Shown piece after piece: positions 251-20,277 of a stretch of 64,000 bases of DNA. Position numbers and translations under genes: made by a program. The notes beneath the pieces are model-generated. The model was not told where the DNA came from and ran no database searches. It saw only the letters and a list, made by a program, of their open reading frames with translations. The stretch covers positions 62,001 through 126,000 of the forward strand of contig QKJR01000095.1 of assembly GCA_003249215.1 (NCBI GenBank), given 5' to 3'. This DNA is from Rhodobacterales bacterium. GTDB taxonomy: Bacteria; Pseudomonadota; Alphaproteobacteria; Rhodobacterales; Rhodobacteraceae. Numbering within the stretch: the first letter of the stretch is position 1; each line of letters begins with the position of its first letter.

Positions 251-697
251 TCAGCAGATCCGCGCAAGCAGGCGCATGAAGACCTTGCGCTCGGAGGGTT
301 TGAGCGGCGCGAGCGTCGTGCGGCTCACGTTCATCGCGGCCTCGATTGCAGCGTTCAGCAGCTCGATCCCGTCCGGGGTCAGCGACACCAGATACCGGCG
401 CCGGTCGTCGGGGTCGGGCTCGGTGCGCAAGAGATCCCGCGCCACAAGGCGATCGACGACGCCCTTGGTCGTCGCCCCGTCCATCGCCACCGAGCGCCCG
501 AGCTGATTTTGCGACATCGCCCCCTCTTCGCCGAGCCGGTACATCACCGAAAACTGCGTCGTGGTCAGCCCGCCGGGCACGAGCTCGGCGAAGATCAGGG
601 AGTTGCGCTGATAGGCACGGCGGAGCAGAAAACCCACTTGTTCGTCGAGCACATAGCCATGCTCGGCGCTGGTCATGACCTTGGTTTCCTCCGCCAC
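251..697 (-). CDS. MarR-family transcriptional regulator
   Basis: A winged-helix regulator of about 148 residues. Visible are the MarR recognition-helix region (SQNQLGRSVAMDGATTKGVVDR) split over residues about 66-87 and the wing DPDDRRRYLVSLT, followed by a C-terminal dimerisation helix. The start chosen is GTG at 697 because AAGGAGG lies five bases upstream; an ATG at 676 is the alternative. It is the last gene of the operon that begins at the 6-hydroxynicotinate-reductase-like gene, 14 bases after livF. NicR, the repressor of nicotinate genes in Pseudomonas putida, is also a MarR protein. That analogy and its position make this the best candidate for the factor binding the 18-bp operators of region A (inference). 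Confidence 0.9.
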   Translation of the reverse strand: MAEETKVMTSAEHGYVLDEQVGFLLRRAYQRNSLIFAELVPGGLTTTQFSVMYRLGEEGAMSQNQLGRSVAMDGATTKGVVDRLVARDLLRTEPDPDDRRRYLVSLTPDGIELLNAAIEAAMNVSRTTLAPLKPSERKVFMRLLARIC

Positions 698-711
698 ACG
701 GGCCTCCTTGT

Positions 712-1413
712 TCAAACCGCCAGATAGGCGTCGCGGATCTCCGGATGTGCCTCCAGCTCCGCAAATGTCCCATCGAATTTCTTTTCGCCGCTTTCGATGA
801 TGATCGCACGATCGGCCACCACCCGGGCAAAATGCAGGTTCTGCTCGGAGATCATCACCGTCAAGCCCTGCGCCTTGAGCCGCAGGATCGCGCGGGCCAT
901 TTCCTCGACGATGACCGGGGCGATGCCCTCGGAGGGTTCGTCGAGCAGCAAAAGCGAGGGGTTGCCCATCAGCGTGCGCGCGATGGTCAGCATCTGCTGC
1001 TCGCCGCCCGACATCGCCTTGCCGAGCTGGTTGCGCCGCTCGTGGAGGTTCGGGAAGATCTCGAAGAGCTGCTCCACGCTCCAGTGCGGCGCGCCCTCGC
1101 GCGCGGGCTGGCGGCCGACCTCGAGGTTTTCGAGCACGGTGAGCGCGGTGAAGATGCGCCGGTCCTCGGGGACATAGCCGATCCCGGCGCGCGCCACGCG
1201 ATAGGCGGCCTGCCCGGTCACCTCCGTGCCCTGAAAGCGCACCTTGCCCGATTTCGGGCGCACGAGCTGGATGATCGACTTCATCGTCGTGCTCTTGCCC
1301 GCGCCGTTGCGCCCCAGAAGCGCCACGACCTCGCCGCGCCCGACCGAGAAGGACAGATCCTGCAGGATATGCGCCTTGCCGTAGAAACTGTTGACGCGCT
1401 CGAGCTCAAGCAT
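712..1413 (-). CDS. livF: Branched-chain-type ABC transporter ATP-binding protein (LivF-like)
   Basis: A 233-residue cytoplasmic ATPase of the hydrophobic amino acid transporter class. Walker A is GRNGAGKST (about residues 36-44), the signature is MSGGEQQML and Walker B is LLLLDEPSEGIAP; all are intact. The length is normal for LivF. The ATG at 1413 overlaps the end of livG by eight bases, showing translational coupling. It would energise the fused LivH-LivM permease. The substrate cannot be read from the sequence. The genetic context (molybdenum hydroxylase and 6-hydroxynicotinate-reductase-like genes) suggests an N-heterocyclic acid or related compound rather than leucine. Confidence 0.93.
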   Translation of the reverse strand: MLELERVNSFYGKAHILQDLSFSVGRGEVVALLGRNGAGKSTTMKSIIQLVRPKSGKVRFQGTEVTGQAAYRVARAGIGYVPEDRRIFTALTVLENLEVGRQPAREGAPHWSVEQLFEIFPNLHERRNQLGKAMSGGEQQMLTIARTLMGNPSLLLLDEPSEGIAPVIVEEMARAILRLKAQGLTVMISEQNLHFARVVADRAIIIESGEKKFDGTFAELEAHPEIRDAYLAV

Positions 1414-2176
1414 TCTCGATCTCCTTGAACAACATCCCGCCGCCCAGATAGACCTCCTGGACCTGCGGATTGGCGCGCACCTCGGCGGCATTGCCATCGG
1501 CGATCAGCTCGCCGCGGTTGAGCACCATGATGTGATGGGCATGGGTGAAGACCACGTCCATGTCATGCTCGGTGAAGAGCACGCTGACCCCCTCCTGCGC
1601 GACGATATCGGCGGTGAGCTGCATCAGCGCGATCCGCGCCGAAGGGGCCATCCCCGCCGTCGGTTCATCCATCAGGAGAAGCCGGGGCTTGTGGGCGAGC
1701 GCGATCGCGAGCTCGAGCCGCTTGAGATCGCCATAGGCCAGCACCGAACAGGGCCGCTCGGCCTGCGCCGTCATCGCCACCCGATCCAGAAGCGCCATCG
1801 CCTCGTCACGATAGAGATCGCGCGCCCGCGGCAAGAGCGAGAAGATCCGGTGATTGTGGCTGATCAGCGCCATCTGCACATTCTCGATCACCGTCATCGA
1901 AGCATAGGTGCCGGTGATCTGGAAGGTGCGCCCGACGCCCCGGCGCCAGACCTGCCGCGGGCGCAGGCCGGTGATCCGCTTCCCATCGAGGAACACATCG
2001 CCCCCCGAGGGTTTGATCTGCCCCATCAGCATGTTGAAGCAGGTCGACTTGCCCGCGCCATTGGGCCCGATCAGCGCCTTCATCTCGCCGGCCTTGACCG
2101 AGAAGGACACGCCCTTGACCGCCTGAAACCCGTCATAGGATTTTGCGAGGTTCTCGACTCTCAGGATCTCGCTCAT
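1406..2176 (-). CDS. livG: Branched-chain-type ABC transporter ATP-binding protein (LivG-like)
   Basis: A 256-residue ATPase and partner of LivF. Walker A is GPNGAGKST, followed by the LivG-typical GVGRTFQ motif. Walker B is RLLLMDEPTAGMAP, with VLFTEHDMDVVF as the H-loop. The signature region reads LAYGDLKRLELA, the usual LivG variant of LSGG. The C-terminal BCA_ABC_TP_C-like tail NPQVQEVYLGG is present. The start ATG overlaps the stop of livHM by four bases (ATGA), and its own stop overlaps livF. The operon is tightly coupled. Confidence 0.93.
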   Translation of the reverse strand: MSEILRVENLAKSYDGFQAVKGVSFSVKAGEMKALIGPNGAGKSTCFNMLMGQIKPSGGDVFLDGKRITGLRPRQVWRRGVGRTFQITGTYASMTVIENVQMALISHNHRIFSLLPRARDLYRDEAMALLDRVAMTAQAERPCSVLAYGDLKRLELAIALAHKPRLLLMDEPTAGMAPSARIALMQLTADIVAQEGVSVLFTEHDMDVVFTHAHHIMVLNRGELIADGNAAEVRANPQVQEVYLGGGMLFKEIENA

Positions 2177-4059
2177 TCCTCGGCCTCCGCGCGTTTGATC
2201 AGCCCCAGACGCTCGCCCAGACGACGCGCCGATCCGACGATCCCCTCGGGCGCGAGGATCACCACGGCGATGATCAGCATCCCGAGCATGAGCCGCCAGT
2301 ATTCCATCCGCGTCAGCCAGTCCTCGACCGTGGCCATGAAGGCCGCGCCGACGACCCCGCCGGACAGCGTCTTGATCCCGCCGAGGAAGACCACGATCAG
2401 TGCATCGAAGCTCTTGCCGATCTCGAGCTCGGTCGGGAAGACCGATCCCTTGGCGAAGACGAAGAGCCCGCCCGCGAGCCCCGCCAGCGCCCCGGCAAGC
2501 GCGAAGGCGAGATATTGCACGCGTTTCACGTTGATCCCGGTCGCCTCGGCCTGACGCGCACTGTCACGCGCGGCGCGCAGCGCATAGCCGAAGGGCGCGT
2601 GGATCACATGGCGCAGGAAGAGGATCCCGGCGGCGCCGATCACCAGCGTGAAGTAGTAATAGGGCACCTGCCCCGAGAGCCAGTCCGAGGGCCAGATATT
2701 GATCAGCCCGTCATCGCCGCGCGTCACCGAACGCCACTGGAAGGCGAGCGACCAGACGAGTTGGCTGAAGGCCAGCGTCAGCATCGCGAGATAGACGCCC
2801 GAGAGCCGGATGCAGAACCAGCCGACCACCAGTGCGAGCATCCCCGCCCCGATCGGCGCAGCGATGAAGGCGATCTCCATCGGCGCCTTGGCATAGGTGA
2901 CGAGGAGCGCCGCGACATAGGCGCCGCCGCCATAAAAGGCCGCATGGCCGAAGCTCGTGAGCCCGCCGGCGCCCAGAATGAAATGCAGCGAGGCGGCGAA
3001 GAGCGCGAAGATGATGATGTCGGTCATCAGCACCAGAAGGAACGGGTCCGAGACCAGCGGCAGCAGCGCCAGCACCGCAAGCAGGCCGGTGACCGCAAGG
3101 CGCCCGGTGCGGCCGAAGGGGCGGATCGGGGCCTCGGGCGCGCCGACCTGACCATGCTCACCCGCGACCTCCTCCTTGCCCAGAAGGCCATAGGGCCGGA
3201 AGATCAGCACGATCGCCATCACCACGAACATCAGCACCAGCGTCGATTGCGGCATGTAGGTCACGCCGAAGACATTGAGCACCGAGATGATCACCGAGGC
3301 GATGAAGGCGCCGGGCAGGCTGCCCATGCCGCCGATCACCACCACGACGAAGAGCGGACCGATGATGTTCATGTCCATCAGCAGGTCGGCCCCGCCCTTG
3401 GGCAGTTGCAGCGCACCGCCCCAGCCGGCCAGCGCCGAGCCGAGCGCGAAGACGCCGGTGAAGAGCCAGCGCTGATTGACGCCGAGCGCGCCGACCATCT
3501 CGCGGTCCTGGGTCGCGGCCCGCACGAGGATGCCGAGCCGCGTCTTGGCGATCAGCCACCAGAGCGCGATCAGGATGAAGGGCGTGATACAGATCAGAAC
3601 GATATCATATTTCGGGATCGGCTCGCCGAAGATGCGGAAGACGCCACGCAGCCCGGGGGCGCGCGCGCCCATGATGTCCTCGGCGCCCCAGCTCATCAGC
3701 GCAAGATCCTGGATCATCAGGATCACACCGAAGGTCGCGACAAGCTGAAAGAGTTCGGGGGCGCGGTAGATCGGGCGCAAGACGACGATCTCGACCAGCG
3801 CGCCGACGAGCCCGACGATCACCCCGGTGAGCACGATCGAGCCCCAGAAGCCGACATGGCTGCCGAGATAGTCGGGCAGGATCCCCATCAGGGTCACCCC
3901 GAAATAGGCGCCGAGCATGTAGAAGGAGCCATGCGCGAAATTGACGATCCGGGTCACCCCGAAGATCAACGAGAGGCCCGAAGCCACCAGAAACAGACCC
4001 GCGGCATTGGAGAGGCCCGTCAGCAGCTGCGCGAAGAAAAATCCCATCGGGAGATCCAC
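2173..4059 (-). CDS. livHM: Fused LivH-LivM ABC permease
   Basis: One 628-residue protein carries both permeases of a branched-chain-type importer. The LivH half (about residues 1-295) has GLSLIFGVTRIVNFAHG near the N-terminus and GGMGSLPGAFI. A hydrophilic linker rich in E, G and P (about 300-320) follows. The LivM half (about 325-628) has HFILGAGGLTSFGHAAF and FLGGIKTLSGGVVGA. The two are usually separate genes of roughly 300 and 330 residues, so this is a clean fusion rather than a sequencing artefact. About 16-18 membrane helices are expected. The start codon is GTG at 4059; an in-frame ATG lies at 4047. Neither has a strong Shine-Dalgarno sequence. Confidence 0.93.
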   Translation of the reverse strand: MDLPMGFFFAQLLTGLSNAAGLFLVASGLSLIFGVTRIVNFAHGSFYMLGAYFGVTLMGILPDYLGSHVGFWGSIVLTGVIVGLVGALVEIVVLRPIYRAPELFQLVATFGVILMIQDLALMSWGAEDIMGARAPGLRGVFRIFGEPIPKYDIVLICITPFILIALWWLIAKTRLGILVRAATQDREMVGALGVNQRWLFTGVFALGSALAGWGGALQLPKGGADLLMDMNIIGPLFVVVVIGGMGSLPGAFIASVIISVLNVFGVTYMPQSTLVLMFVVMAIVLIFRPYGLLGKEEVAGEHGQVGAPEAPIRPFGRTGRLAVTGLLAVLALLPLVSDPFLLVLMTDIIIFALFAASLHFILGAGGLTSFGHAAFYGGGAYVAALLVTYAKAPMEIAFIAAPIGAGMLALVVGWFCIRLSGVYLAMLTLAFSQLVWSLAFQWRSVTRGDDGLINIWPSDWLSGQVPYYYFTLVIGAAGILFLRHVIHAPFGYALRAARDSARQAEATGINVKRVQYLAFALAGALAGLAGGLFVFAKGSVFPTELEIGKSFDALIVVFLGGIKTLSGGVVGAAFMATVEDWLTRMEYWRLMLGMLIIAVVILAPEGIVGSARRLGERLGLIKRAEAEE

Positions 4060-4078
4060 CAGATCATGAAGAGGGGGT

Positions 4079-4102
4079 CTCCGGCCCCGAGCGGGGCCAG
4101 AG
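4079..4102 (-). terminator. Hairpin between livK and livHM
   Basis: CTCCGGCCCC pairs with GGGGCCAGAG across a four-base loop, giving ten pairs with one G-U on the minus-strand RNA. No T-run follows. It probably stabilises the upstream binding-protein message or partly attenuates transcription rather than ending it. Similar hairpins follow the other two solute-binding-protein genes in this window. Confidence 0.6.
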
Positions 4103-4126
4103 GAGGGTCACAAGGAAAGCGGCGGC

Positions 4127-5329
4127 TCAGTTGGCCGGACGCATCGCCTTGATCTCGTCATCCGAGGGCATGTAGGCGACCGGGTTCTTGTAGCTCCAGT
4201 CCACCATGACACCCTGCCCGTCCTTGAGCGCGAGCTTGCCGATCCAGGCGCCGAAGGTCGACTGGTGATCGAGCGCGCGATATTCGAGCTCGCCCACCGG
4301 GGTTTCGGGAACCTTGAGCCCTTCGAAGGCCTTGATCAGCGAGGCGGTATCGGTCGCACCGGCCTTCTCGATCGCCGCGGCCACCGAGAGCGCCATCGTG
4401 TAGCCGACAAGGCTGCCCATCTTCGGCGTCTCGCCGGTGAAGGCCTCGTAATCGGTCACGAAGGTCTTGCCGGGCCCGTCGGGCAGGTCATACCAGGGAT
4501 AGCCGGTCACGATCCAGTCTTCGGGGGATTCCTCGCCCAGCGGCTCGAGATATTCGGGCTCGCCCGTCAGCATCGAATAGACCGGCCGCCCGTCGAAGAG
4601 GCCGCGGTCGGTGCCCTCGCGGACGAATTTCGCAAGGTCCGTGCCGAAGGTCACGTTGAAGATCGCATCGGGCTTGACGCGTTCCAGCGCCTGAACCTCG
4701 GCGGCGGCGTCGATCTTGAAGAGCGCGGGCCATTGCTCGCCGACGAATTCGACATCGGGCTTGAGCTGCTTGAGCACCGTCTTGAAGGCCTCGACCGCCG
4801 AGGTGCCGTAGGAATAGTTCGGCGCGATCGCGGCATAGGTCTTGGCGTCGGTCTTGGCGGCGGCTTCGGCGAGCATCGCGGCCTGCACCCAGGTCGAGAC
4901 GCGCAGACGGAAGGTATTGGCGTTGCCCGACTGCCAGACGAGCGTGTCGGCCAGCGGTTCCCCCGCGAGATAGAGATAGTTCTTTTCCTTGGCGAAGGAC
5001 GAGAGCGCGATGCCCACGTTCGACAGGATCGCGCCGGTGAACATCACCGCGCCGTCGCGGGTCATCAGCTCCTCGGCGATCTTGACCGCCTCGCCGGGGT
5101 CGCCCTGATCGTCGCGGAAGATGAATTCCATCGGACGGCCGAGCACGCCGCCCTTGGCATTGACCTGGCTCATCGCGAGCTCGATCCCCTTGCGATAGGG
5201 GTCGGCAAAGGCGGCCATGCGCTTGTAATGGTTGATGTCGCCGATCTTGATCGGCTCTTCGGCCAGGCTGGGGGAGGCCAGCAGGGTCACCGCCGTGGCT
5301 GCGGCGAGAAGGCTGCGGAAGATGTTCAT
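4127..5329 (-). CDS. livK: ABC transporter substrate-binding protein (Leu/Ile/Val-type, periplasmic)
   Basis: 400 residues. It has a clear signal peptide (LLAAATAVTLLASPSLA, cleavage near residue 23) followed by IKIGDINHYK and the type-I periplasmic binding fold (Peripla_BP_6): GIELAMSQVNAKGGVLGRP, IAEELMTRDGAVMFTGAILSN and PNYSYGTSAVEAF are visible. It should deliver substrate to LivHMGF encoded downstream. The gap to livHM is 67 bases and holds a hairpin. The gap upstream to the AA_synth gene is 89 bases. Ligand identity is unknown; nicotinate or a related heterocyclic acid is inferred from neighbours only. Confidence 0.93.
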   Translation of the reverse strand: MNIFRSLLAAATAVTLLASPSLAEEPIKIGDINHYKRMAAFADPYRKGIELAMSQVNAKGGVLGRPMEFIFRDDQGDPGEAVKIAEELMTRDGAVMFTGAILSNVGIALSSFAKEKNYLYLAGEPLADTLVWQSGNANTFRLRVSTWVQAAMLAEAAAKTDAKTYAAIAPNYSYGTSAVEAFKTVLKQLKPDVEFVGEQWPALFKIDAAAEVQALERVKPDAIFNVTFGTDLAKFVREGTDRGLFDGRPVYSMLTGEPEYLEPLGEESPEDWIVTGYPWYDLPDGPGKTFVTDYEAFTGETPKMGSLVGYTMALSVAAAIEKAGATDTASLIKAFEGLKVPETPVGELEYRALDHQSTFGAWIGKLALKDGQGVMVDWSYKNPVAYMPSDDEIKAMRPAN

Positions 5330-5418
5330 CGGTTCGTGTCTCTCCTGTTGGGCCGGGCCGTTTCATCTGGCCGCCCGGTATGGCCGCTTGCCGGGTTGGT
5401 CCCGGTCTCATGCTATGC

Positions 5419-5997
5419 TCAGCGCAGGCCGTCTTCGCCCTGCGCCGCGTCATGGGTAAGGCCGCCGACACGCGGCAAGGGCCGCCCGCCGGTGGCAAGG
5501 GCCACGGCGACCACGATCTCGCCGGCGCGCGGCGCATCGTTGATCCGGATTTCCATGGCGTCGAAATGGCTGCGGACATAGGCCGCGTCCTTGTGCCCAA
5601 GCGGGATGTCGAGCACCTGCCCGATGCCGCCGAGCTTCTTCGACGAGGGCACGAGCGCCGCGCCGCCGCCAAGCGCCGCGCGCAAGGGCGCGCCGAGCTT
5701 CGGATGCAGGAGCGCCGCGGCATGTTCGAGCTCACCGCCCTCGCCCACCAGCGCGGCCTTGCCATAGCTCTGGATCGCCTCGGGCCCGACGCCAAGCGCC
5801 GCCATCGCCTCGCGCGCCAAGAGATCCCCCAGCGCCGCCCCGGTCTCGATCAGTTCGGACAGATCCTCGACATAGCGCCCGGCGAAGGGATTGGCGATCA
5901 CCGCCGCAGCCGCCGCCTTGCGCGCAGGGGGCGTGATCGCCCGCCCCATCTCGCGCTCGATGCGCTCGACCTGGGTGAAGATCTTGCGGATATGCAT
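5419..5997 (-). CDS. AA_synth-family protein, copy 1
   Basis: 192 residues of the family annotated as amino acid synthesis protein (Pfam PF06684), whose biochemical role is not established. Characteristic stretches are VIANPFAGRYVEDLS (near residue 33), SYGKAALVG, ALVPSSKKLGG, YVRSHFDAMEIRI and RVGGLTHDAAQGEDGLR at the C-terminus. Its neighbour immediately upstream is a paralogue ending in the same EDGLR sequence. The ATG overlaps the stop of that paralogue by one base. Two copies in tandem suggest a heteromeric complex or two related substrates. The context points to heterocycle breakdown, not biosynthesis. Confidence 0.85.
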   Translation of the reverse strand: MHIRKIFTQVERIEREMGRAITPPARKAAAAAVIANPFAGRYVEDLSELIETGAALGDLLAREAMAALGVGPEAIQSYGKAALVGEGGELEHAAALLHPKLGAPLRAALGGGAALVPSSKKLGGIGQVLDIPLGHKDAAYVRSHFDAMEIRINDAPRAGEIVVAVALATGGRPLPRVGGLTHDAAQGEDGLR

Positions 5998-6581
5998 CAG
6001 CGCAGCCCGTCCTCGCCCTTGGCCTCGGCATGCGTCAGCCCGCCGACACGCGCATGAACCCGCGGCCCGGTGGTCATCACGAGGGCGAGGACGATCTCGT
6101 CGGCCTTGGGCGCATCGGCAAGACCGACCTCCATCGCGTCGAAATGGCTGCGCACATAGGAGGCGTTGGAATGGGTGATCGGCACGTCGAGCCGGGTGCC
6201 GGGACCACCGAGTTTCTTGGTCGAGGGCACGATCGCGGCCGAGGCGGTCAGCTTTTCGCGCATCGAATAGCCGCCCGGCACATGCCAGAGCGCGCCATGC
6301 TCGAGCTCACCCGCGGCGCCCACGATCGCGCCCTTGCCATAGCCCTCGATCGCATCCGGGTCGCCGCCCATCGCCTCGAGCAACTCGCCCGCAAGACGCA
6401 GGCCGAGCGGCTTCAGATCATCCATGAAGCCCGCGATATCCTCGTGATAGGCGCCGGCGAAAGGGTTCTTGATCACGGCGAGGATCGCGCCCTTGCGCAG
6501 CGGCGTCTCGGCTTTCGGGCCGCCCTCGTGCCAGATCGTCTCGAGCTGGATGGCGGTCTTGCGGATCTCGGGTTCAGGCAA
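5997..6581 (-). CDS. AA_synth-family protein, copy 2
   Basis: About 194 residues, paralogous to the downstream copy: VIKNPFAGAYHEDIAGF, GYGKGAIVG, AIVPSTKKLGG, YVRSHFDAMEVGL and RVGGLTHAEAKGEDGLR. The start is inferred as TTG at 6581 because AAAGGAG sits seven bases upstream. A longer reading to 6629 would add a Pro/Cys-rich segment without family resemblance. The start overlaps the end of the UPF0280 gene by eight bases, implying coupled translation. Both copies keep the conserved Lys-Lys-Leu-Gly-Gly and His-Phe-Asp segments, so neither looks degenerate. Confidence 0.83.
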   Translation of the reverse strand: MPEPEIRKTAIQLETIWHEGGPKAETPLRKGAILAVIKNPFAGAYHEDIAGFMDDLKPLGLRLAGELLEAMGGDPDAIEGYGKGAIVGAAGELEHGALWHVPGGYSMREKLTASAAIVPSTKKLGGPGTRLDVPITHSNASYVRSHFDAMEVGLADAPKADEIVLALVMTTGPRVHARVGGLTHAEAKGEDGLR

Positions 6582-7458
6582 GGGCGGGCTCCTTTGGCAG
6601 GCAGGTATCTTGCAGGTGGGTATCGGCAAGGGTGGCGCGAGCGTCGCCCAAAGCCAGATAGGCGGCGCGGATCAGCCCGCGCTGCCGAAAATTTTGGGCC
6701 AGCGCCAGAGCGGGCGCAAGCGCCTCTGCACATTCGGCCTCGCTCAACGGGCCGACATCGATCACCACCGCACGGTCGCCAAGATCGCTCTCCGGCACGA
6801 GCTCGCAAGCCCGCGCACGCAGAATTTCGGGATGACCGGGCAGATCGACGGCATTCGCGATCAGAGTGGCCGCGGCATCGGCCTGCGCCGCGGTGTCGGC
6901 GAGCACGGTCACCGCATCGGCGATGCCCATCGAGAACGACCGCCCGCGCCAGCCCGAGGTGGCGATGCCCCCGATCCCGGCATCGGCCGGAACCTCGATC
7001 CGCCCGCCGGAGCGGCCGGTCATCGGATCGTCGCAGATCGCCACGCGGAAAGGGTCGGCCCGCGACCAGAGCGCAATATCGCCGCCATTGTTCACATGCA
7101 GCCGCGCGAGCCCATGGCCGGGCACCAGCGCCGCGGCCAGCAGGTGATCGGCGACCGATCCCGCGACCGCCGCCATCGGCGTGATGAACAGCGGCGCGAA
7201 GGGCGCGGTGGCGGCCACCATCGCCCGTGCCACGGCCCCGCGCGGTGCGGGCCCAGTGGCTGCGCGCAGCCGCGCGAGCTCGGTCACGAGATCGCCCAGA
7301 AGCGGGGTGAAACCCGTGCGCAACCGCTCGAAGGCCGCCATCCGGGCGGGTTCGGGCCCGTCGGCCGTGACGATCGCGTCGATCGGGCCGTGGATCAGCC
7401 GCAGGCGCCGGCCGTCACGCGACAGGCGCGCCTCGCAGCGCTCGGCGAAAGCGCTCAT
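6574..7458 (-). CDS. UPF0280 family protein (ApbE-like fold)
   Basis: 294 residues. It matches the UPF0280/COG2122 family, which belongs to the ApbE (FAD:protein FMN transferase) superfamily. Visible ApbE-like elements are HVNNGGDIALW, in the place of the ApbE Asn-x-Gly-Gly motif, and GWRGRSFSMGIADAVTVLA with a following Ala-rich helix resembling the ADA segment. Its start ATG overlaps the stop of the Fe-S reductase-like gene by four bases. I infer a role in flavin attachment or cofactor maturation of that neighbouring protein. A direct catabolic role is the alternative. Confidence 0.82.
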   Translation of the reverse strand: MSAFAERCEARLSRDGRRLRLIHGPIDAIVTADGPEPARMAAFERLRTGFTPLLGDLVTELARLRAATGPAPRGAVARAMVAATAPFAPLFITPMAAVAGSVADHLLAAALVPGHGLARLHVNNGGDIALWSRADPFRVAICDDPMTGRSGGRIEVPADAGIGGIATSGWRGRSFSMGIADAVTVLADTAAQADAAATLIANAVDLPGHPEILRARACELVPESDLGDRAVVIDVGPLSEAECAEALAPALALAQNFRQRGLIRAAYLALGDARATLADTHLQDTCLPKEPALA

Positions 7459-8987: not shown

Positions 8988-9025
8988 CGGGCGGGCCTTT
9001 CGGATGCGGGGCGGCCCCGCTGCAT

Positions 9026-9043: not shown

Positions 9044-9066
9044 GCATGAGTCCCCGCCCCCGTCAA

Positions 9067-9302: not shown

Positions 9303-9335
9303 TTGTCCATGCATTTATCGTTCGTATACTTATGA
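9303..9335 (+). promoter_or_regulatory. Promoter with overlapping operator upstream of hyuA1
   Basis: TTGTCC (9303-9308) and TATACT (9325-9330) are spaced by 16 bases. The 18-bp palindrome TCGTTCGTATACTTATGA (9318-9335) overlaps the -10, with left half perfect and right half four of six. It lies about 140 bases upstream of the hyuA1 start. A leader of that length is somewhat long, so the TTGACA element at 9378 may be an additional promoter. Confidence 0.55.
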
Positions 9336-9377
9336 AAATAATTTGAGGTTCATGCCCCGTTTTCAGCCCCGCGCCGA

Positions 9378-9407: not shown

Positions 9408-9475
9408 GCCGCATCCTTCCGCGGTTCTGCCTGCCTGGAAGGCGCGCATCCCCAAGGCCATTTCAGGACGGACCG

Positions 9476-11554: not shown

Positions 11555-13296
11555 CCCTCGATCCGATCACCCTCTCGGTCATCCAGTCCGGCCTGCAACA
11601 GGTCTGCGACGAGATGGATCTCAGCTTCTCGCGCGCGGCCTTCTCGCCGGTCATCGCCGAGGCGAACGACCGCTCCGACGGGATCTATTCGGCCGAGGAC
11701 GGCAGCCTGATCGCGCAGGGCTCGCAGGGGCTGCCGGTCTTCGTCGGCACGATGCAATATTCGACCCGCACCCTGATCGAATGGATCGCCGACGGGCGCG
11801 CGATCGCGCCGAAGCCGGGCGATATCTACATCGTCAACGATCCCTATCTCGGCGGAACCCATCTGATGGATGTGCGCTTCGCGATGCCGGTCTGGCGCAA
11901 CGGCGACATTTTCTGCTGGCTGTCGAACACCGGCCACTGGCCCGACACGGGCGGCGCGGTGCCCGGCGGCTTCTCGGCCTCGGCCACCTCGGTCGAGCAG
12001 GAGGGGCTGCGCCTGCCGCCGGTGCGGCTCTTCAAGGAGGGCAAGCTTGATCCCGAGATCTACGGCATCATCTGCTCGAACATCCGCGTGGCCGATCAGC
12101 GCATCGGCGATGTGAAGGCGCAGGCGGCCGCGCTCTATGTCGGCGAGAGCCGCCTGACCCGGCTTCTGGACCGTTACGGCGATGAGACCGTGCGCGAAGC
12201 CATCGCCGAGCTGCGCGCCCGGGCCGCGGCGCAGATGCGCGCCGGCATCCGCGAGATCGCGCCCGGCACCTATGCCGCGACCGCCTATGTCGACAGTGAC
12301 GGGGTGGTGAACGAACCGCTCGAGATCCGGCTGACGATCACCGCGACCGGCGAAAAGCTGATCTTCGATTTCGCGGGATCGAGCGCGCCCTGCGCCGGGC
12401 CGATGAACTCGGTCCTCGCCACGACGCTCTCGTCGGTCTATCTCGCGATGCGCCATATCTTCCCCGATGTGCCGATCTCTGCGGGCGCCTTCGAGCCGCT
12501 GGAGATCATCCGCCCCACCGGCACCTTCCTCGATGCGCAATATCCCCGCCCGGTCTCGGGCTGCGCCGCCGAGGTCAGCCAGCGCATCGCCGAAGCCGTC
12601 TTTGCCGCGCTGGTCGAGGCCCTGCCCGATCGCGTCACCGCCTCGCCCGCGGGCTCGTCGGGCAACTTCGCGCTCGGCGGCTCGGTCCCCGAAGAAGGGC
12701 GCAACTTCGTCATGTATCAGATCTCGGGCGGCGGCTACGGCGGCTGGAACGGCGGCGACGGCATTGCGAACGGCTGCTCGACCATCGGCATTTCCAAGGC
12801 GCCCCCGGTCGAGATCATGGAGCAGCAATTCCCGGTGCTCTACCACCGCTACGCGCTGCGCGAGGGCTCGGGCGGTGCGGGCAAGTATCGCGGCGGTTTC
12901 GGGCTCGATTACGAGGTCGAGCTGCGCCGCGGCACTGCGCAGGCAAGCTTCGTGATGGATCACGGCCGCTTCGGGCCGCAGGGCGCGCTTGGCGGGCGTG
13001 ACGGGATGGTTAACCACGTCCTCGTCACCCGCGGCGGGCAGGAGATCACGCCCGAGCACCTCTCGAAGGCGCAGGACATTCCGCTGAGCGCGGGCGACCG
13101 GGTGCGCGTGGGCACCCCGGGCGGCGGCGGCTATGGCGATCCTTTCGAGCGCGCACCGGAGCTCGTGGCCGAGGATGTCCGGCTCGGGCGCTACAACAGC
13201 GACGAGGCCCGCAGCCTCTTCGGCGTGGTGCTTGGCGCGGATTTCGTCCCCGATCTGAGCGCAACCCAAGCCCTGCGCGCCGAGCTGCGCTTCTGA
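11551..13296 (+). CDS. hyuB: Hydantoinase/oxoprolinase B subunit (HyuB1)
   Basis: 581 residues, Hydantoinase_B domain (PF02538), cytoplasmic. Diagnostic segments are SPVIAEANDRSDGIY, DIYIVNDPYLGGTHLMD, NTGHWPDTGG and the glycine-rich C-terminal GTPGGGGYGDP. HyuA and HyuB act as a complex. The start is at the ATGA overlap with hyuA1. It differs clearly from the three other HyuB proteins in the window, for example NDPYLGGTH instead of NDPWMGTGH, so it belongs to another subgroup and probably acts on another substrate. The operon ends at the terminator at 13314. Confidence 0.93.
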   Translation: MTLDPITLSVIQSGLQQVCDEMDLSFSRAAFSPVIAEANDRSDGIYSAEDGSLIAQGSQGLPVFVGTMQYSTRTLIEWIADGRAIAPKPGDIYIVNDPYLGGTHLMDVRFAMPVWRNGDIFCWLSNTGHWPDTGGAVPGGFSASATSVEQEGLRLPPVRLFKEGKLDPEIYGIICSNIRVADQRIGDVKAQAAALYVGESRLTRLLDRYGDETVREAIAELRARAAAQMRAGIREIAPGTYAATAYVDSDGVVNEPLEIRLTITATGEKLIFDFAGSSAPCAGPMNSVLATTLSSVYLAMRHIFPDVPISAGAFEPLEIIRPTGTFLDAQYPRPVSGCAAEVSQRIAEAVFAALVEALPDRVTASPAGSSGNFALGGSVPEEGRNFVMYQISGGGYGGWNGGDGIANGCSTIGISKAPPVEIMEQQFPVLYHRYALREGSGGAGKYRGGFGLDYEVELRRGTAQASFVMDHGRFGPQGALGGRDGMVNHVLVTRGGQEITPEHLSKAQDIPLSAGDRVRVGTPGGGGYGDPFERAPELVAEDVRLGRYNSDEARSLFGVVLGADFVPDLSATQALRAELRF

Positions 13297-13313
13297 ACCA
13301 CCCCGCAAATTAA

Positions 13314-13337
13314 AAAGGGGCCCTGCGGGGCCCCTTT
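13314..13337. terminator. Bidirectional intrinsic terminator
   Basis: AAAGGGGCCC and GGGCCCCTTT form a perfect ten-base-pair stem with a TGCG loop. A-rich sequence precedes it (13312-13316), giving a T-run on the minus-strand RNA. It separates the convergent hyuB1 (+) and ferredoxin reductase (-) genes. Confidence 0.85.
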
Positions 13338-13357
13338 CGCATTCCGTGCCGACCGGA

Positions 13358-14152
13358 TCAGTCGACGAAGGCGCGCTCGACCACGAAGGTCCCCGGCGCG
13401 CTGTTCGATCCTTCTTCGAGCCCGAACCCCTCAAGCGCGGCCTTGGTGTCGCGCAGCATCGCCATCGAGCCGCAGATCATGCCGCGGTCGCTCTCGGGCG
13501 AGATCGGCGGCAGGCCCAGATCGGCGAAGGCCTTGCCCGAGGCCATCAGATCGGTGATCCGCCCGCGAAACGGATAGTCCTCGCGCGTCACCGTGTTGTA
13601 GAGCCGCAGCCGCCCGGCCGCGAATTCGCCCACCAGCGGATCCGCGAGCGTCGCGGCGACCAGCTCCTGGCCATAGGTCAGTTCGGAGACCTCGCGGCAG
13701 GTATGGGTCAGGATCACCTCCTCGAATTTCTCATAGGTCTCGGGATCGCGGATCAGCGAGGCGAAGGGCGCGATCCCGGTGCCGGTCGAGAACATCCAGA
13801 GCCGCCGCCCGGGCAGCAGCGCATCGAGCACGAGCGTGCCCGTGGGTTTTTTCCGCATCAGCACCGTGTCGCCCTCGCGGATCTTCTGCAGATGCTCGGT
13901 CAGCGGGCCGCCCGGCACCTTGATCGAGTAGAACTCGAGCTCCTCGTCCCAAGACGGGCTCGCCACCGAATAGGCGCGAAAGACCGGGCGCTCGGCATTG
14001 GGCAGGCCGATCATCACGAATTCGCCCGAGCGGAACCGCAGGCTCGCGGGCCGCGTCATGCGAAAGCGGAAGAGCCGGTCGGTGTAATGGCTCACCTCGG
14101 TCACGGTCTGGGCGAAGACGCCCGCGGGAATGGGGAAGCTCTGGTCAGTCAT
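13358..14152 (-). CDS. fpr: Ferredoxin--NADP+ reductase
   Basis: 264 residues. FAD-binding motif FRAYSVASPSWDEELEFY (about residues 55-72), NADP-binding STGTGIAPFASLIRDP, CGSMAML and the C-terminal FVVERAFVD are those of bacterial Fpr-type reductases. The reaction moves electrons between NADPH and ferredoxin. The start ATG at 14152 lies seven bases after the ferredoxin stop, so the two form an operon. Control by the same operator as the 6-hydroxynicotinate-reductase-like gene argues for a dedicated electron supply to it. A general housekeeping Fpr cannot be excluded. Confidence 0.93.
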   Translation of the reverse strand: MTDQSFPIPAGVFAQTVTEVSHYTDRLFRFRMTRPASLRFRSGEFVMIGLPNAERPVFRAYSVASPSWDEELEFYSIKVPGGPLTEHLQKIREGDTVLMRKKPTGTLVLDALLPGRRLWMFSTGTGIAPFASLIRDPETYEKFEEVILTHTCREVSELTYGQELVAATLADPLVGEFAAGRLRLYNTVTREDYPFRGRITDLMASGKAFADLGLPPISPESDRGMICGSMAMLRDTKAALEGFGLEEGSNSAPGTFVVERAFVD

Positions 14153-14159
14153 GATGTCC

Positions 14160-14504
14160 TCACTGGGCAGCGGGTTGGGCGGCAGGTTCGGGGGAAAGCA
14201 GCGCGCGCTTGCCGGGTTTGCCGGCCCAGTCGTCGCGGTCCTCGGGCGGGGCGCCCTTCTCGGCGATATTGGGCCAGAGCGCGGCATAGCGGCGGTTCAG
14301 CTCGAGCCAGTCCTCGACGCCTGCGGCACTGTCGGCGCGGATCGCGTCGATCGGGCATTCGGGCTCGCAGACGCCGCAATCGATGCATTCATCGGGCGCG
14401 ATCACGAGGAAATTCTCGCCCTGATAGAAGCAGTCGACCGGGCAGACCTCGACGCAATCCTGATAGGTGCAGTTGATGCAATCTTCCGTGACGACATAGG
14501 TCAT
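14160..14504 (-). CDS. fdxA: 7Fe ferredoxin (FdxA type)
   Basis: 114 residues. The N-terminal [26 protein letters not shown] and the second motif [18 protein letters not shown] are the 3Fe-4S/4Fe-4S pattern of FdxA/FdII ferredoxins. The C-terminal extension includes [15 protein letters not shown], usual for the alphaproteobacterial form. The start is ATG 14504, the standard family N-terminus. It is the first gene of the fdxA-fpr operon. The promoter has TTGACG at 14570-14565 and the operator on the -10. Likely role: electron donor to the reductase-like protein of region A (inference). Confidence 0.95.
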
Positions 14505-14529
14505 TCTGTGCAGCTCCGCGCGCCAATAA

Positions 14530-14570
14530 TCGTTAGTAGGCAAACGATCATCGCCACCCGGCCCCGTCAA
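14530..14570 (-). promoter_or_regulatory. fdxA promoter with operator on the -10
   Basis: On the minus strand TTGACG (14570-14565) is followed by exactly 17 bases and then the palindrome TCGTTTGCCTACTAACGA (14547-14530). Read on the plus strand this is TCGTTAGTAGGCAAACGA, which matches both halves of TCRTTNG-N4-CNAACGA perfectly. The arrangement is the same as in the reductase promoter near 9050. Confidence 0.65.
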
Positions 14571-14626
14571 TCGTTACCGATGCCTCGCGCGGCAAAAATC
14601 GAGCCCGTAAAGCGCCCCTGCTTAAT

Positions 14627-14644
14627 TCATTCGCATACGAACGA
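14627..14644. promoter_or_regulatory. Additional 18-bp operator copy
   Basis: TCATTCGCATACGAACGA is the best-matching copy, with both halves perfect. It lies between the nicB stop (14680) and the fdxA promoter, 80 bases upstream of the fdxA operator. No convincing promoter overlaps it. It may be an auxiliary site for looping, or control an unrecognised transcript. Confidence 0.55.
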
Positions 14645-14679
14645 CTTTTGGTCGGTTTTCAGGAGCTCCGCCAAGCCGT

Positions 14680-17600
14680 TCAGCGCGCCGCGCGCGCCGC
14701 CTGTACAGCCTCGGCGAGGTTGCCCCAGGCCGGCTTCCCGGGCGCAAGCGTGCGGCGCAGATAGGCCGCGATCTCGGTGATGGCCTCGTCGCTCATCACG
14801 GGGCCGAAGGCCGGCATCTGCTGCCCGCCGCCCGGCGCCGGCACCCCGGCAAGGATCGCGCGCACGAGGCTCTGGGGCCCGGGGGCATGCACCGCCGAGG
14901 AGAAGACCAGAGGCGCGCGCGCCGCCGTCGCGAAGGACACCGGCCCGGTGATGTGACAGGCGCCACAGGCCCGATCGAAGAGCCGCCCGGCCGCATCGGT
15001 CGGGGTTTCGAGCGCGGCATTGGCCTCGGCCGCCAGCGCCGCAGGCTCGGGCTCGGCCCGGTCCGGGGCGCGGTCGAGCGATGCGAGATAATGTGCCATC
15101 GCGCGGATATCGGCCTCGGGCAGTTCGCGCAACTCGGCCACCACGGGCGCCATCGGCCCGGCCGCCGCCCCGTGCCGCGCCGAGCCTCCGCGCAGGTAAT
15201 CGTAGAAATCCGCCTCGCTCCAGCGCAGCGGCGCGGGGCCGGTGCCATCGAGCGGCGGCGCATACCAGCCGTCGATCACCGCGCCCGAGAGATGCACGTC
15301 CCCGGCCTTCTCGGCGCCCGCGAAATTGCGCGGGCTGTGGCAGGCGGCACAATGCCCGGCCCCCTCGACGAGATAGGCGCCACGGTTCCATTCGTCGGAT
15401 TTCGTCGGATCGGGGGTGAATTCCTGCGCCCGGTGCCAGATCCGGTTCCACAGCGCCATCCCCGGCCGCAGGTTCGTCGGGAAGGTCATCCGCTCGGCCG
15501 GCAGCGGCGCAGAGCGGACCGGATCGAGGCTCTGGATATAGGCATAGAGCGCCTGCATGTCGGGCTCGGTGATCCGGGCGAAAGCGGTATAGGGAAAGGC
15601 CGGGTAGAGATGGCGCCCATCGCGCGAGATCCCCTCGCGCATCGCCCGGGCAAAGGCCGGATAGGACCAGCTCCCGAGACCGGTTTCCGGGTCGGGCGTC
15701 AGGTTCGTCGAATGGATCGTGCCGAAACCGGTCTCGAGCGGGCGCCCGCCGGCCAGCGGCACCCCGCCCTCGGCGGTATGGCAAACGGCGCAATCGCCAA
15801 GCGCAAAGACCTGCCGGCCGCGTTCGAGGGTCTCGGCCGACCAGCTCGAGGCCGCGGGCGGCTGGGTGCGCGGGATCTCGGGGCGGAGCGGCATCGCGAC
15901 GACGCCCATCGCGAGGCTTCCCGCGAGCGCCGCCCCCGCCCCGGCGAGGAGCGCCCGCCAGCCACCACGCCGGGGGCGCGCGGGCGCCGGCAGCGCGGCG
16001 GGCATCGGCGCCTCGGCCAGCGCCGCCTTCACCTTCTCCGGCGTGAAGGGAAGCGAGCGCATCCGCACGCCCGTCGCATCAAAAATCGCATTCGCGATCG
16101 CCGCCGCCGAGGGCACCGAGGCGCTTTCGCCCACGCCGAGCGGGGGCTCTTCCGGACGCTCCATCAAGAGCGTGCGGATCGCCGGCAGATCCTCGAACCG
16201 GGCGAGCGGATAGCTGCCCCAGTCCTTGTCGGCCACCGCGATCGCGTCGAAGCTGATCTGCTCGCCCAGCGTCCGGCTGATCGACTGCACCACATTGCCG
16301 TGGATCTGGTGGCGCACGCCGTCGGGGTTGATCATCAGCCCCGAATCCTGCCCCACGAGGATCTTCGAAAGACTGACCTCGCCCGTGCGCCGGTTGACCC
16401 CGACCTCGACGAGCCAGGCCGCCTGCGCCGCGGCGACACCGGGAAATTTCCCATGCACATAGGTCGCATAGGCGAAGCCCTGACCATAGGCGATCTCGCC
16501 CTCATGACGCAGCCGGGCGCCGACATGGGGCTCCCATCCGCCTTCCTCGGCGGTGCGCCGGATCAGCTCGGCCGTGCGCGGATCGTCGATATGGCGCAGG
16601 CGAAAGGCGACCGGGTCCTCGCCCGCCGCTTCGGCCATCTCGTCGATGAAACATTCATGCGCGAAGGTGTTCGGCATCGCCGAGACGCCGCGAAACCACG
16701 AGGCGCGCACGATCGGCGCCATGTCATGGGCGACCACGCGCAGATTGGGAATGCGATAGGGCGGGATCGCGGTGCGGTCGCCCATGTCCGAGGGGCGCGG
16801 CGCCGGGTCGATCACCCCGGTCAGCAGCAGCGCGAGATTGGGGGCGAGGTTCGAGGGATAGCGCGTTTCGAATTCATAGCCGTCGAAATCGCCCTCGGGC
16901 GACAATCCGCCCTCGACATCCATCAATTGCGCGGCGCCCTTCGGCTCCCACAGATGTTCCTGCTCGCGGGTGAGCTGCACGCGCACCGGACGACCGACCG
17001 CGCGCGACAGGAGCGCAGCATCCCCACAAACGTCATCGGTGCAGTTGCGCCCGAAACAGCCCGCCGCCTCGTGCCGGATGATCTCGACCGCCTGCGGATC
17101 GAGGCCCATGAGCTGGGCCAGATCGCCTTGCAGAACATGCGGGTTCTGCGTGCCCGACCACAGCCTGAGCCGCCCGTCCGACCAGTCGGCCACCGCGCAG
17201 GAGGGGCCGATCGCGCCATGCATCTGCCAGGGCCAGCTATAGCTTCGCTTGCGCCACACCCCCGCGCGCGCCTTCGCGGCGGCGAGGTCCCCCTGATCGC
17301 GCAAGAGCCGCGGGGTCGAGGGCATGGCGCGCAGAGTGCCCGCGATATCCTGCATGTCGGGCAGCTCGGGCGGCAGCGCCCAGCGCACCTTGAGCGCCTC
17401 GGCGATGGCACGGGCCTGCCCTTCGCGCTCGGCGACCACGCCCAGGAAATCGCCCTTGCGCACGACGGCCACGAAGCCCGGCATCCCCGAAACCGACCCC
17501 TCGTCGACCTCGAGCAGGCTGCGACCGATGAAATCGCCACTGTCGCGCCCGGCATAGGGCGGGCGGATCACATGGCCGTGCAGCATCCCCGGCACGCGCA

Positions 17601-18147
17601 CATCATGAACATAGGTCCACGCGCCCACCGCCTTGGCGGGAATGTCGACCCGCGGGCTCGCTCGCCCCACGATGCGATAGTCGGCCGGCGCCTTGACCGG
17701 GGCCTGCGGGTCGAGCTCGGCGTCGATCTGCTGGTTCTCGAGCAGCGTGGCATAGTCGAGCCCTGCACCGGAACCGGCAAGGAAGCGCCCGTTCTGTGCG
17801 CGCAGCTCCTCCGCCGCCACGCTGAGACGCGCCGCGGCGAGCTGCCCCAGCAGCGCGCGCGCCTGAGCGGCCGCCCGGCGCAGCGGTTCGGCCGCGAACT
17901 GGATCGTCTCCGAGGCGATGGTCGGCCCCTGATCCGGCGTCGCGCCGGTATGGCCGAGCACCATCCGCACCCGCGCAGGCGGCAGGTCGAGCTCTTCCGC
18001 CACGATCTGGCCGAGTGCGGTGCGGATCCCGGTCCCCAGATCGACATGGCCATTGTAGCCCGTCGCATCCCCCGCCGCATCGAGCGTGAGCAGCACCTCG
18101 CGTCCGGTCTTGCCGTGGCGCCAGATCATCAGATGCGGCACAGTCAT
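14680..18147 (-). CDS. nicB: NicB-like molybdopterin dehydrogenase fused to tri-haem cytochrome c
   Basis: 1155 residues, close to the roughly 1190 of Pseudomonas putida NicB. An N-terminal xanthine-dehydrogenase-family molybdenum-cofactor region (about 1-740) carries HGHVIRPPYAGRD, AAGCFGRNCTDD and the active-site PLGVGESASVPSAAAIANA. A membrane-anchor-like hydrophobic stretch (WRALLAGAGAALAGSLAMGVVAM) follows. Three c-type haem motifs are present: CAVCH, CAACH and CGACH. NicAB hydroxylates nicotinate to 6-hydroxynicotinate and passes electrons to the respiratory chain through the haems. The start ATG overlaps nicA by four bases. Isoquinoline 1-oxidoreductase or another N-heterocycle hydroxylase is the main alternative. 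Confidence 0.85.
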   Translation of the reverse strand: MTVPHLMIWRHGKTGREVLLTLDAAGDATGYNGHVDLGTGIRTALGQIVAEELDLPPARVRMVLGHTGATPDQGPTIASETIQFAAEPLRRAAAQARALLGQLAAARLSVAAEELRAQNGRFLAGSGAGLDYATLLENQQIDAELDPQAPVKAPADYRIVGRASPRVDIPAKAVGAWTYVHDVRVPGMLHGHVIRPPYAGRDSGDFIGRSLLEVDEGSVSGMPGFVAVVRKGDFLGVVAEREGQARAIAEALKVRWALPPELPDMQDIAGTLRAMPSTPRLLRDQGDLAAAKARAGVWRKRSYSWPWQMHGAIGPSCAVADWSDGRLRLWSGTQNPHVLQGDLAQLMGLDPQAVEIIRHEAAGCFGRNCTDDVCGDAALLSRAVGRPVRVQLTREQEHLWEPKGAAQLMDVEGGLSPEGDFDGYEFETRYPSNLAPNLALLLTGVIDPAPRPSDMGDRTAIPPYRIPNLRVVAHDMAPIVRASWFRGVSAMPNTFAHECFIDEMAEAAGEDPVAFRLRHIDDPRTAELIRRTAEEGGWEPHVGARLRHEGEIAYGQGFAYATYVHGKFPGVAAAQAAWLVEVGVNRRTGEVSLSKILVGQDSGLMINPDGVRHQIHGNVVQSISRTLGEQISFDAIAVADKDWGSYPLARFEDLPAIRTLLMERPEEPPLGVGESASVPSAAAIANAIFDATGVRMRSLPFTPEKVKAALAEAPMPAALPAPARPRRGGWRALLAGAGAALAGSLAMGVVAMPLRPEIPRTQPPAASSWSAETLERGRQVFALGDCAVCHTAEGGVPLAGGRPLETGFGTIHSTNLTPDPETGLGSWSYPAFARAMREGISRDGRHLYPAFPYTAFARITEPDMQALYAYIQSLDPVRSAPLPAERMTFPTNLRPGMALWNRIWHRAQEFTPDPTKSDEWNRGAYLVEGAGHCAACHSPRNFAGAEKAGDVHLSGAVIDGWYAPPLDGTGPAPLRWSEADFYDYLRGGSARHGAAAGPMAPVVAELRELPEADIRAMAHYLASLDRAPDRAEPEPAALAAEANAALETPTDAAGRLFDRACGACHITGPVSFATAARAPLVFSSAVHAPGPQSLVRAILAGVPAPGGGQQMPAFGPVMSDEAITEIAAYLRRTLAPGKPAWGNLAEAVQAARAAR

Positions 18148-18623
18148 CCCCGCGCCTCCGGTGCGTTTTCGGCCATCAGCACCACCGCCCGTTCGGCCGC
18201 CGCGAGAATTTCCTGATGGGTGCCGCAGCGGCACAGGTTATGGCGCAGCGCGCGGCGGATCCGGTCGCGGTCGGGCTGCGGCTCCTGCATCAGCAGCGCG
18301 GCCACGGTCATGATCATCCCGTTCAGGCAATAGCCGCATTGCGCGCCCTCCATCTCGATGAAGGCGCGCTGCACCGGATGCGGCGCCGCGCGGGTGCCCA
18401 GCCCTTCGAGGGTGGTCACCTCGCGCCCCGCCACCGCCGAAAGCGGCATCACGCAGGCCCGCGCCGCCTGCCCGTCCACGAGCACCGTGCAGGCCCCGCA
18501 TTCGGCATAGCCGCAGCCATATTTCGGCCCGTTCAATTGCAAATCGTTGCGCAAAGCCTCGAGCAGCGTGACATGCCCGGGCAGATCGAGCGACACGTTG
18601 CGCCCATTCACCTTCAGTTCCAT
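18144..18623 (-). CDS. nicA: NicA-like 2Fe-2S subunit of molybdenum hydroxylase
   Basis: 159 residues, the normal length for NicA. The plant-type 2Fe-2S motif CGYAECGACTVLVDG...C (about residues 40-60) is followed by the second cluster motif CGYCLNGM...HNLCRCGTH. It transfers electrons from the molybdenum centre to the haem domain of the NicB-like subunit. The start ATG at 18623 opens a canonical MELKVNG beta-strand; an upstream extension to 18725 would run through the promoter. Together with nicB it is the oxidative first step inferred for region A. Confidence 0.9.
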   Translation of the reverse strand: MELKVNGRNVSLDLPGHVTLLEALRNDLQLNGPKYGCGYAECGACTVLVDGQAARACVMPLSAVAGREVTTLEGLGTRAAPHPVQRAFIEMEGAQCGYCLNGMIMTVAALLMQEPQPDRDRIRRALRHNLCRCGTHQEILAAAERAVVLMAENAPEARG

Positions 18624-20276: not shown

Positions 20277-20277
20277 C

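Follow-up and report, generated by a model that had tools for sequence, protein, structure and literature searches.

We analyzed a gene cluster predicted to serve the reductive breakdown of nicotinate, located at positions 251-18623 of a 64,000-nucleotide stretch of DNA (the window) that corresponds to positions 62,001-126,000, forward strand, of contig QKJR01000095.1 of a Rhodobacterales bacterium (Rhodobacteraceae; assembly GCA_003249215.1). The source genome is 3.17 Mb in size and 82% complete, and the contig is labelled C84 in our set. The cluster (Table 1) includes a minus-strand run of genes, with several overlaps, for a reductase of the 6-hydroxynicotinate reductase (Hnr) type, a UPF0280 protein, two AA_synth proteins, a solute-binding protein, the ATP-binding cassette (ABC) importer components LivHM, LivG and LivF, and a MarR-family regulator. 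HyuA and HyuB are encoded divergently from this run and are followed, on the minus strand, by ferredoxin-NADP reductase, the ferredoxin FdxA, NicB and NicA. Every gene named in an earlier note on this DNA was found in this interval.

Table 1. Genes and operator sites of the cluster, in window positions (a dot marks features without strand).
Feature	Position	Strand	Remarks
MarR-family regulator (NicR-like)	251-715	-	Pfam MarR; last gene of reductase-importer run
ABC importer ATPase, LivF-type	712-1413	-	
ABC importer ATPase, LivG-type	1406-2176	-	
Fused ABC permease LivHM (LivH-LivM type)	2173-4059	-	Homologs in 60/140 reductase loci
ABC solute-binding protein, proposed nicotinate binder	4127-5329	-	Homologs in 65/140 reductase loci
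AA_synth (DUF1185) protein 1	5419-5997	-	Pfam PF06684 4.5e-73; PDB 2qtp match 7.7e-85
AA_synth (DUF1185) protein 2	5997 to ~6590, start codon uncertain	-	Pfam PF06684 7e-71
UPF0280 protein, ApbE flavin-transferase fold	6574-7458	-	AlphaFold2 (AF2) model and Foldseek
6-Hydroxynicotinate reductase type Fe-S protein (Hnr)	7455 to ~8972; longest open reading frame to 9047	-	
Operator palindrome, between divergent reductase and HyuA genes	9317-9336	.	Conserved in congener loci L176, L177
HyuA, ATP-binding subunit of proposed lactamase for 1,4,5,6-tetrahydro-6-oxonicotinate (THON)	9476-11554	+	Pfam Hydantoinase_A
HyuB, hydrolytic subunit of proposed THON lactamase	11551-13296	+	Pfam Hydantoinase_B
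Ferredoxin-NADP reductase	13358-14152	-	NCBIfam PRK10926 1.4e-38, 132.6 bits, below cut-off 390; homologs in 36/140 loci
Ferredoxin FdxA, proposed reductase electron donor	14160-14504	-	NCBIfam FdxA 156.2 bits, above cut-off 135
Operator palindrome upstream of FdxA	14529-14548	.	0 mismatches to pattern
Second operator palindrome upstream of FdxA	14626-14645	.	
NicB, molybdopterin subunit of nicotinate hydroxylase, cytochrome c domains	14680-18147	-	
NicA, [2Fe-2S] subunit of nicotinate hydroxylase	18144-18623	-	
Operator palindrome upstream of NicA	18682-18701	.	Congeners: 17.9-bit site upstream of NicA

The formation of THON was described first for Eubacterium barkeri and later for the aerobe Azorhizobium (PMC3511419). 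A cluster that encodes the enzymes of the first three steps together with an ABC transporter and two conserved proteins of unknown function occurs in Azorhizobium and other proteobacteria, and was drawn in 2012 for Azorhizobium (AZC_2804-2790), Bradyrhizobium (blr3818-3830), Rhodopseudomonas and strain SG-6C; when grown on them, SG-6C broke down both nicotinate and 6-hydroxynicotinate (PMC3511419, including its Figure 4). Since both route and cluster are published there, the reading of the window genes as a wholly undescribed nicotinate pathway was rejected. The view of the earlier note that the gene set is undescribed and a reductive route in an aerobe new is not supported, and the lower pathway, which it also thought new, need not be, as Azorhizobium proceeds by way of glutarate (work cited in PMC3511419). 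The novelty lies in the probable replacement of an enamidase by HyuAB, in the interchangeable hydroxylase and in the proposed role of UPF0280, within a pathway of known kind.

The window reductase is 58-76% identical to its relatives in 120 reductase loci, and of 25 listed relatives on plasmids, 16 already carry the annotation 6-hydroxynicotinate reductase. Eight cysteines are each kept in at least 66 of the 68 rows of the alignment, and its lone Pfam match (0.022) was taken as chance. The link to the E. barkeri Hnr goes through the published 42% identity of the SG-6C reductase (PMC3511419) rather than through a direct comparison. Together with the ferredoxin and ferredoxin-NADP reductase genes, these data support the combination of a NicAB-type respiratory hydroxylase with a 6-hydroxynicotinate-reductase-type protein that had been proposed for this DNA.

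Candidate ring-opening enzymes of reductase-carrying genomes

To compare gene content we used a class sample (385 genomes, 68 with an Hnr-type reductase) and an order sample (292 genomes, 77 with it), which among reductase carriers have only the window genome in common and together hold 144 different reductase-bearing genomes. In addition, at least 588 relatives came from scanning public genomes for the reductase, and 80 named loci were retained from these. Neighbourhoods were counted in 140 reductase loci (120 for some comparisons), each gene being scored by best match within the fetched flank only; loci L176-L185 were fetched later and stand outside these counts and those of the 106 long loci (at least 18 kb; the other 34 were omitted from the hydroxylase and ring-opener table). 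Ortholog identity cut-offs were chosen after viewing the gaps: for enamidase, at least 68% versus at most 41% (class sample) and at least 69% plus three at 48% (order sample), and for HyuB, at least 62% versus at most 57% (class) and at least 73% versus at most 44% (order).

An amidohydrolase cluster is conserved in 51/120 reductase loci, and the closest match of its member in L094 is the solved enamidase 2vun (E 6.9e-107), which we take to be the E. barkeri enzyme. The absence of an enamidase from the window, claimed in the earlier note, was confirmed and extended, as no match at E 1e-50 was found in the window, in its own genome (82% complete) or in the congeners G404 and G495 (99-100% complete). 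Both congeners keep the HyuAB and NicAB layout (reductase 82-83%, HyuB 94% identity), so that HyuAB was found in all three genomes and an enamidase in none. This bears on the reading that the gene set differs in nothing from the nicotinate cluster published for Azorhizobium and Bradyrhizobium (PMC3511419): reductase, NicAB, importer, MarR regulator, UPF0280 and AA_synth all match Bradyrhizobium loci, but with an enamidase found in none of the three genomes and HyuAB lying inside the cluster, full identity is extremely improbable.

In the 68 reductase genomes of the class sample, 29 have only the enamidase and 39 only HyuB, with none having both or neither (Fisher p 7e-20, uncorrected for kinship). 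The order sample gave 39 genomes with only the enamidase (36 at 69% or more, three at 48%), 37 with only HyuB, one with both (G586) and none with neither. Combined, 68 of the 144 genomes carry only the enamidase, 75 only HyuAB, one both and none neither; a check of co-occurrence across genomes, as suggested earlier, thus finds HyuAB or enamidase with the reductase every time. No locus among the 140 contains both enamidase and HyuB. In G586 (L180, L181) the enamidase is located on a separate contig, accompanied there by an importer and by an AA_synth pair of its own.

HyuAB could instead belong to a neighbouring pathway (e.g., for hydantoin or 5-oxoproline), with another hydrolase opening the ring. 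HyuB is on another contig or distant from the reductase in several class genomes (e.g., G093, G122 and G066), and the window has a second HyuAB pair at 20278-24041. Against this, HyuB is found in every enamidase-less reductase genome of both samples, is rare in class genomes without the reductase (4/317), and is part of the cluster or adjacent to it in the window, the congeners, Salipiger, Actibacterium, Mesorhizobium and plasmid pLA6_008, making this explanation very unlikely.

A maximum-likelihood tree of the 68 class-sample reductases, with a bootstrap that is not fully settled and three rows on long branches, shows nine switches of the ring-opener label, at least four of them forced by well-supported branches. 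A single enamidase clade was rejected on this tree (approximately unbiased test, p ~2e-59), and the window reductase groups with those of the enamidase-type genomes G303 and G381 (support 99/98). The tree weakens the idea that two substrates underlie the enamidase/HyuAB split, i.e., that the two kinds of cluster degrade different pyridines or lactams rather than using two enzymes for one step. Members of the HyuAB family do act on several lactams, and the reductase substrate in HyuAB genomes is a prediction; however, enamidase-type and HyuAB-type reductases are intermingled on the tree, three genera contain genomes of both kinds, and the two have in common the operator described below and an NDH-type hydroxylase (found in 24 long loci together with enamidase and in 15 together with HyuB; the label denotes an identity of 45% or more to the hydroxylase of L145 over 500 residues). 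We consider two substrates unlikely. Taking together the either/or pattern, the switches on the tree and the shared operator, HyuAB most likely substitutes here for the enamidase, as a predicted ATP-dependent THON lactamase.

Several points weigh against a replacement of the enamidase by HyuAB. G586 is the sole genome of the 144 with both ring openers, and the 317 class genomes without the reductase include, besides the four HyuB orthologs, one enamidase; counting HyuB from 48% up adds seven such genomes (48-57%) and none with the reductase. In the class sample only the best three (HyuB) or four (enamidase) candidates per genome were scored, so that a second ring opener may have been missed, while in the order sample nearly all candidates were scored. 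An independent-contrast test had four well-supported pairs (sign test p 0.125), and the complementarity is uncorrected for kinship; given these few pairs, the unsettled bootstrap and the long branches, the case leans on repetition more than on one p value. 6-Hydroxynicotinate as reductase substrate is predicted by analogy with published relatives, and the 28-row AF2 model of the reductase (predicted local distance difference test score, pLDDT, 67.5, low confidence) gave no Foldseek PDB match at E<=0.001. HyuA or its homologs have upstream operator sites at p<0.05 in just 4/26 loci. The related lactamase OplAB tolerates substituents adjoining the amide poorly (PMC11033972). Finally, ATP would be spent on a hydrolysis that the enamidase performs without it.

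Operator, hydroxylase and other neighbours

The 20-base palindrome is located in three control regions of the window (Table 1). Its pattern, derived from the same sites, has seven matches at four places in the window, a number reached in 1/100 shuffles. In a held-out check, a matrix built from four window sites found 141 sites of at least 18 bits in 2.68 Mb of related loci (and hence not independent of one another) versus one in mononucleotide shuffles. The shared operator that the earlier note described is therefore real, but its claim that all genes are linked by this operator requires the genes from reductase to MarR to form a single transcript; no strong site was found before the importer or MarR gene in the window. 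The importer and the MarR regulator with a shared operator, a feature of reductive (THON) clusters, are present in the window. MarR homologs (at least 40% identity) occur in 91/140 reductase loci, and a gene annotated as 'Nicotinate degradation protein R' on pLA6_008 is 74% identical to that of the window.

Upstream sites at p<0.05, where 5% are expected by chance, precede the reductase in 36/132 loci, NicA or Fe-S homologs in 33/114, the enamidase in 25/54, FdxA in 3/3, MarR in 10/91 and AA_synth 1, which is internal to the gene run, in 5/109, many of these loci being close Bradyrhizobium relatives. Bradyrhizobium loci have the operator before the reductase, NicA and the enamidase, and the congeners before HyuA and NicA. 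Of the three enamidases at 48% identity, the one fetched (L182) also has an operator in front, of 21.3 bits. Since operator sites stand at HyuA in the window, the congeners, L131, L128, L154 and L055, HyuAB appears to occupy the control slot of the Bradyrhizobium enamidase.

The hydroxylase usually encoded beside the reductase is a fused Fe-S and molybdopterin protein, instead of which the Bradyrhizobium loci and the window have NicAB (53-62% identity; main pieces of the window NicB 53-60% to the Bradyrhizobium NicB beside the reductase). NicAB is encoded in 31 of the 106 long loci and an NDH-type enzyme in 67, with no locus having both and eight having neither; the 31 NicAB loci have the enamidase nearby in 25 cases, neither ring opener in six and HyuB in none. 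The L145 hydroxylase matches two molybdopterin subunits of the nicotinate dehydrogenase 3hrd with 260 and 208 bits, which sum to more than its best single-chain match (357); its best NCBIfam model is selenium-dependent xanthine dehydrogenase (558 bits, below the cut-off of 830).

Just left of the window, a three-subunit xanthine-dehydrogenase-type hydroxylase (flavin adenine dinucleotide, Fe-S and Mo subunits) and XdhC are encoded beside MarR (L004 14124-19988; contig C84 56124-61988). This hydroxylase (16391-19988) was rejected as the pathway enzyme: its large subunit has only ~31% identity to its counterparts in other reductase loci, whereas the eight such loci inspected have medians of 54-60% to the rest. 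One short terminal fragment next to the reductase of L139 does, however, show 52%. L004 also yielded no operator site above 9 bits.

At least one AA_synth gene is present in 113/140 loci and two in 41/140 (two queries were able to match one gene, and counts were redone by position), in enamidase and HyuAB genomes alike; one candidate role of these proteins is a step after ring opening. A nicotinate phosphoribosyltransferase (NCBIfam and Pfam) is encoded near the reductase in 15/140 loci, which fits nicotinate as the substrate, and a glutaryl-CoA-dehydrogenase-like gene, named by sequence reading, in 5/140 (L069, L073, L080, L092 and L148), which fits a route via glutarate. Named in the same way (L038, L076 and L077 are examples), a Rieske-type oxygenase-like gene occurs in 13/140 loci and in L178 and L179, in certain cases placed between the genes for the solute-binding protein and AA_synth, and an aldehyde:ferredoxin oxidoreductase-like gene in 5/140.

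The ferredoxin-NADP reductase and FdxA genes (13358-14504) lie between HyuB and NicB in the window, and L176 and L177 lack the pair at this place, suggesting that it was inserted in the window lineage or lost in the congeners. Beyond NicA, window positions 18873-25992 encode MmgE/PrpD, the second HyuB-HyuA pair, an Asp/Glu racemase or arylmalonate decarboxylase family protein and a Cys/Met pyridoxal phosphate enzyme, which look like a separate catabolic set; an oligopeptide-type ABC importer follows at 26081-31562.

The same NicAB-HyuAB-Hnr set is carried by the 102 kb plasmid pLA6_008 (L184, CP031593.1) of a marine Paracoccaceae strain, with identities of 70% for NicA and NicB, 88% for HyuB, 84% for HyuA, 80% for the reductase, 65% for UPF0280 and 78 and 82% for the AA_synth proteins. 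Its nicA, nicB, hnr and nicR genes are annotated as such, and its HyuAB is called acetophenone carboxylase subunits. The enamidase version of the cluster, combined with NicAB, is found on a betaproteobacterial plasmid (identities of 68% for enamidase and 62% for the reductase). Considering that 26 plasmid records contain the reductase, the module may move between bacteria.

Predicted activities of HyuAB and UPF0280

HyuA has the ATP motifs DVGGT and DMGGT, and its nearest PDB sequence is the N-methylhydantoinase 7hk5. HyuB residues H104, D107 and H129 are spaced as His99, Asp102 and His124 of CapB, which matches, by spacing, three of the four metal-site residues. Against the caprolactamase models, HyuA (498 bits) and HyuB (315 bits) score below the equivalog cut-offs of 1000. 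For CapAB, the suggested mechanism is phosphorylation of the lactam by one subunit and hydrolysis by the other (PMC8453981), and OplAB is ATP-dependent and prefers the six-membered delta-valerolactam (PMC11033972). As THON is a six-membered lactam, the reaction proposed for HyuAB would be within the chemistry of the family. Its assignment as ring opener, made in the earlier note, is strongly supported and has become firmer through the comparative genome data.

A UPF0280 gene is found near the reductase in 134/140 loci and in 105/106 long loci. The AF2 model (pLDDT 93.5) gave as top Foldseek match 2o34, its one solved homolog (1.9e-9), followed by ApbE flavin transferases from 4.4e-5 (probability 1.00); 30 chains matched at E<=0.001, two of them 2o34, with TM-scores to the ApbE chains of ~0.3-0.5. 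The Pfam ApbE score is 18.5 bits, below the gathering cut-off of 25.6, and the protein contains GGD, TSG and ADxxxT stretches, which we take to mark ApbE. The E. barkeri Hnr reportedly has a covalent flavin and Fe-S clusters, and its enamidase is said to yield 2-formylglutarate, in work by Alhapel and colleagues from 2006. With such a flavin, the near-constant adjacency and the ApbE fold, the strongest candidate for a flavin transferase acting on the reductase is UPF0280, and we propose that it may attach this flavin. Among 68 rows, no classical flavin-acceptor motif was found in the reductase and no acceptor site could be named; a flavin-attachment threonine in its GCGSA/GSAT stretch is unsupported (T in 56, A in 11 and L in one of 68 rows).

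Proposed pathway and its relation to known systems

Based on these results, the module probably serves reductive (THON) nicotinate catabolism in which HyuAB opens the ring instead of an enamidase. The ABC importer would take up nicotinate, and NicAB would hydroxylate it to 6-hydroxynicotinate, passing electrons to its cytochrome c domains and on to the respiratory chain. The Hnr-type reductase, presumably fed by ferredoxin-NADP reductase and FdxA and with its flavin attached by UPF0280, would then form THON, whose lactam HyuAB would open at the expense of ATP. The opened product may lose ammonium to give 2-formylglutarate, which could proceed toward glutarate as reported for Azorhizobium. The NicR-like MarR regulator, with its putative inducer, would control the set through the shared palindrome.

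The Azorhizobium/Bradyrhizobiaceae cluster (PMC3511419) has in common with the window the nicotinate hydroxylase, the Hnr-type reductase, the ABC importer, conserved unknown proteins and an aerobic THON route, whereas HyuAB and the gene order set the window apart, as judged from the sampled NicAB loci. CapAB and OplAB (PMC8453981, PMC11033972) belong to the same two-subunit hydantoinase/oxoprolinase family, with the ATP motifs, metal-site residues and lactam chemistry in common; the window pair differs in its caprolactamase scores and in its proposed substrate, an unsaturated lactam acid. UPF0280 has the fold of the ApbE flavin transferases, but a sub-threshold Pfam score and, as proposed target, a cytosolic reductase. 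In Pseudomonas putida, the nic route uses NicAB, then NicC and NicX, with NicR as regulator; the NicAB-type first step and a MarR regulator are common to both, with reduction in the window instead of a decarboxylative hydroxylation, and the earlier note reported no NicC or NicX for the window. The nicotinate fermentation genes of E. barkeri, which we take to be those for nicotinate dehydrogenase (3hrd), Hnr and enamidase (2vun), would perform the same reduction to THON, and both an enamidase and an NDH-like hydroxylase are retained in many relatives among the Alphaproteobacteria; the window has non-homologous or distant enzymes at two of the three steps (NicAB and HyuAB) and an aerobic electron acceptor.

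Our literature search (titles and abstract beginnings of the papers listed, with subscription papers outside its scope) found no paper linking HyuAB or UPF0280 to nicotinate breakdown, none on UPF0280, none joining DUF1185 with nicotinate and no report of an ATP-dependent THON lactamase; in the available portion of PMC10041152, on Ruegeria mutants, only a table row for pncB is relevant.

Overall, we find it fairly probable that HyuAB is an ATP-dependent THON lactamase that has repeatedly replaced the enamidase, that UPF0280 acts as a flavin transferase dedicated to the reductase, and that a fixed reductase core is combined with a swappable hydroxylase and ring opener. The near-perfect either/or split over 144 genomes would represent a clean case of non-orthologous replacement and would explain nicotinate use by alphaproteobacteria without an enamidase. 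It also offers a function for UPF0280 and for a branch of the large and often mis-named hydantoinase/oxoprolinase family, in which orthologs with 84 and 88% identity are labelled acetophenone carboxylase. If true, the reductive nicotinate pathway would consist of a constant reductase core with exchangeable hydroxylase and ring-opening parts.

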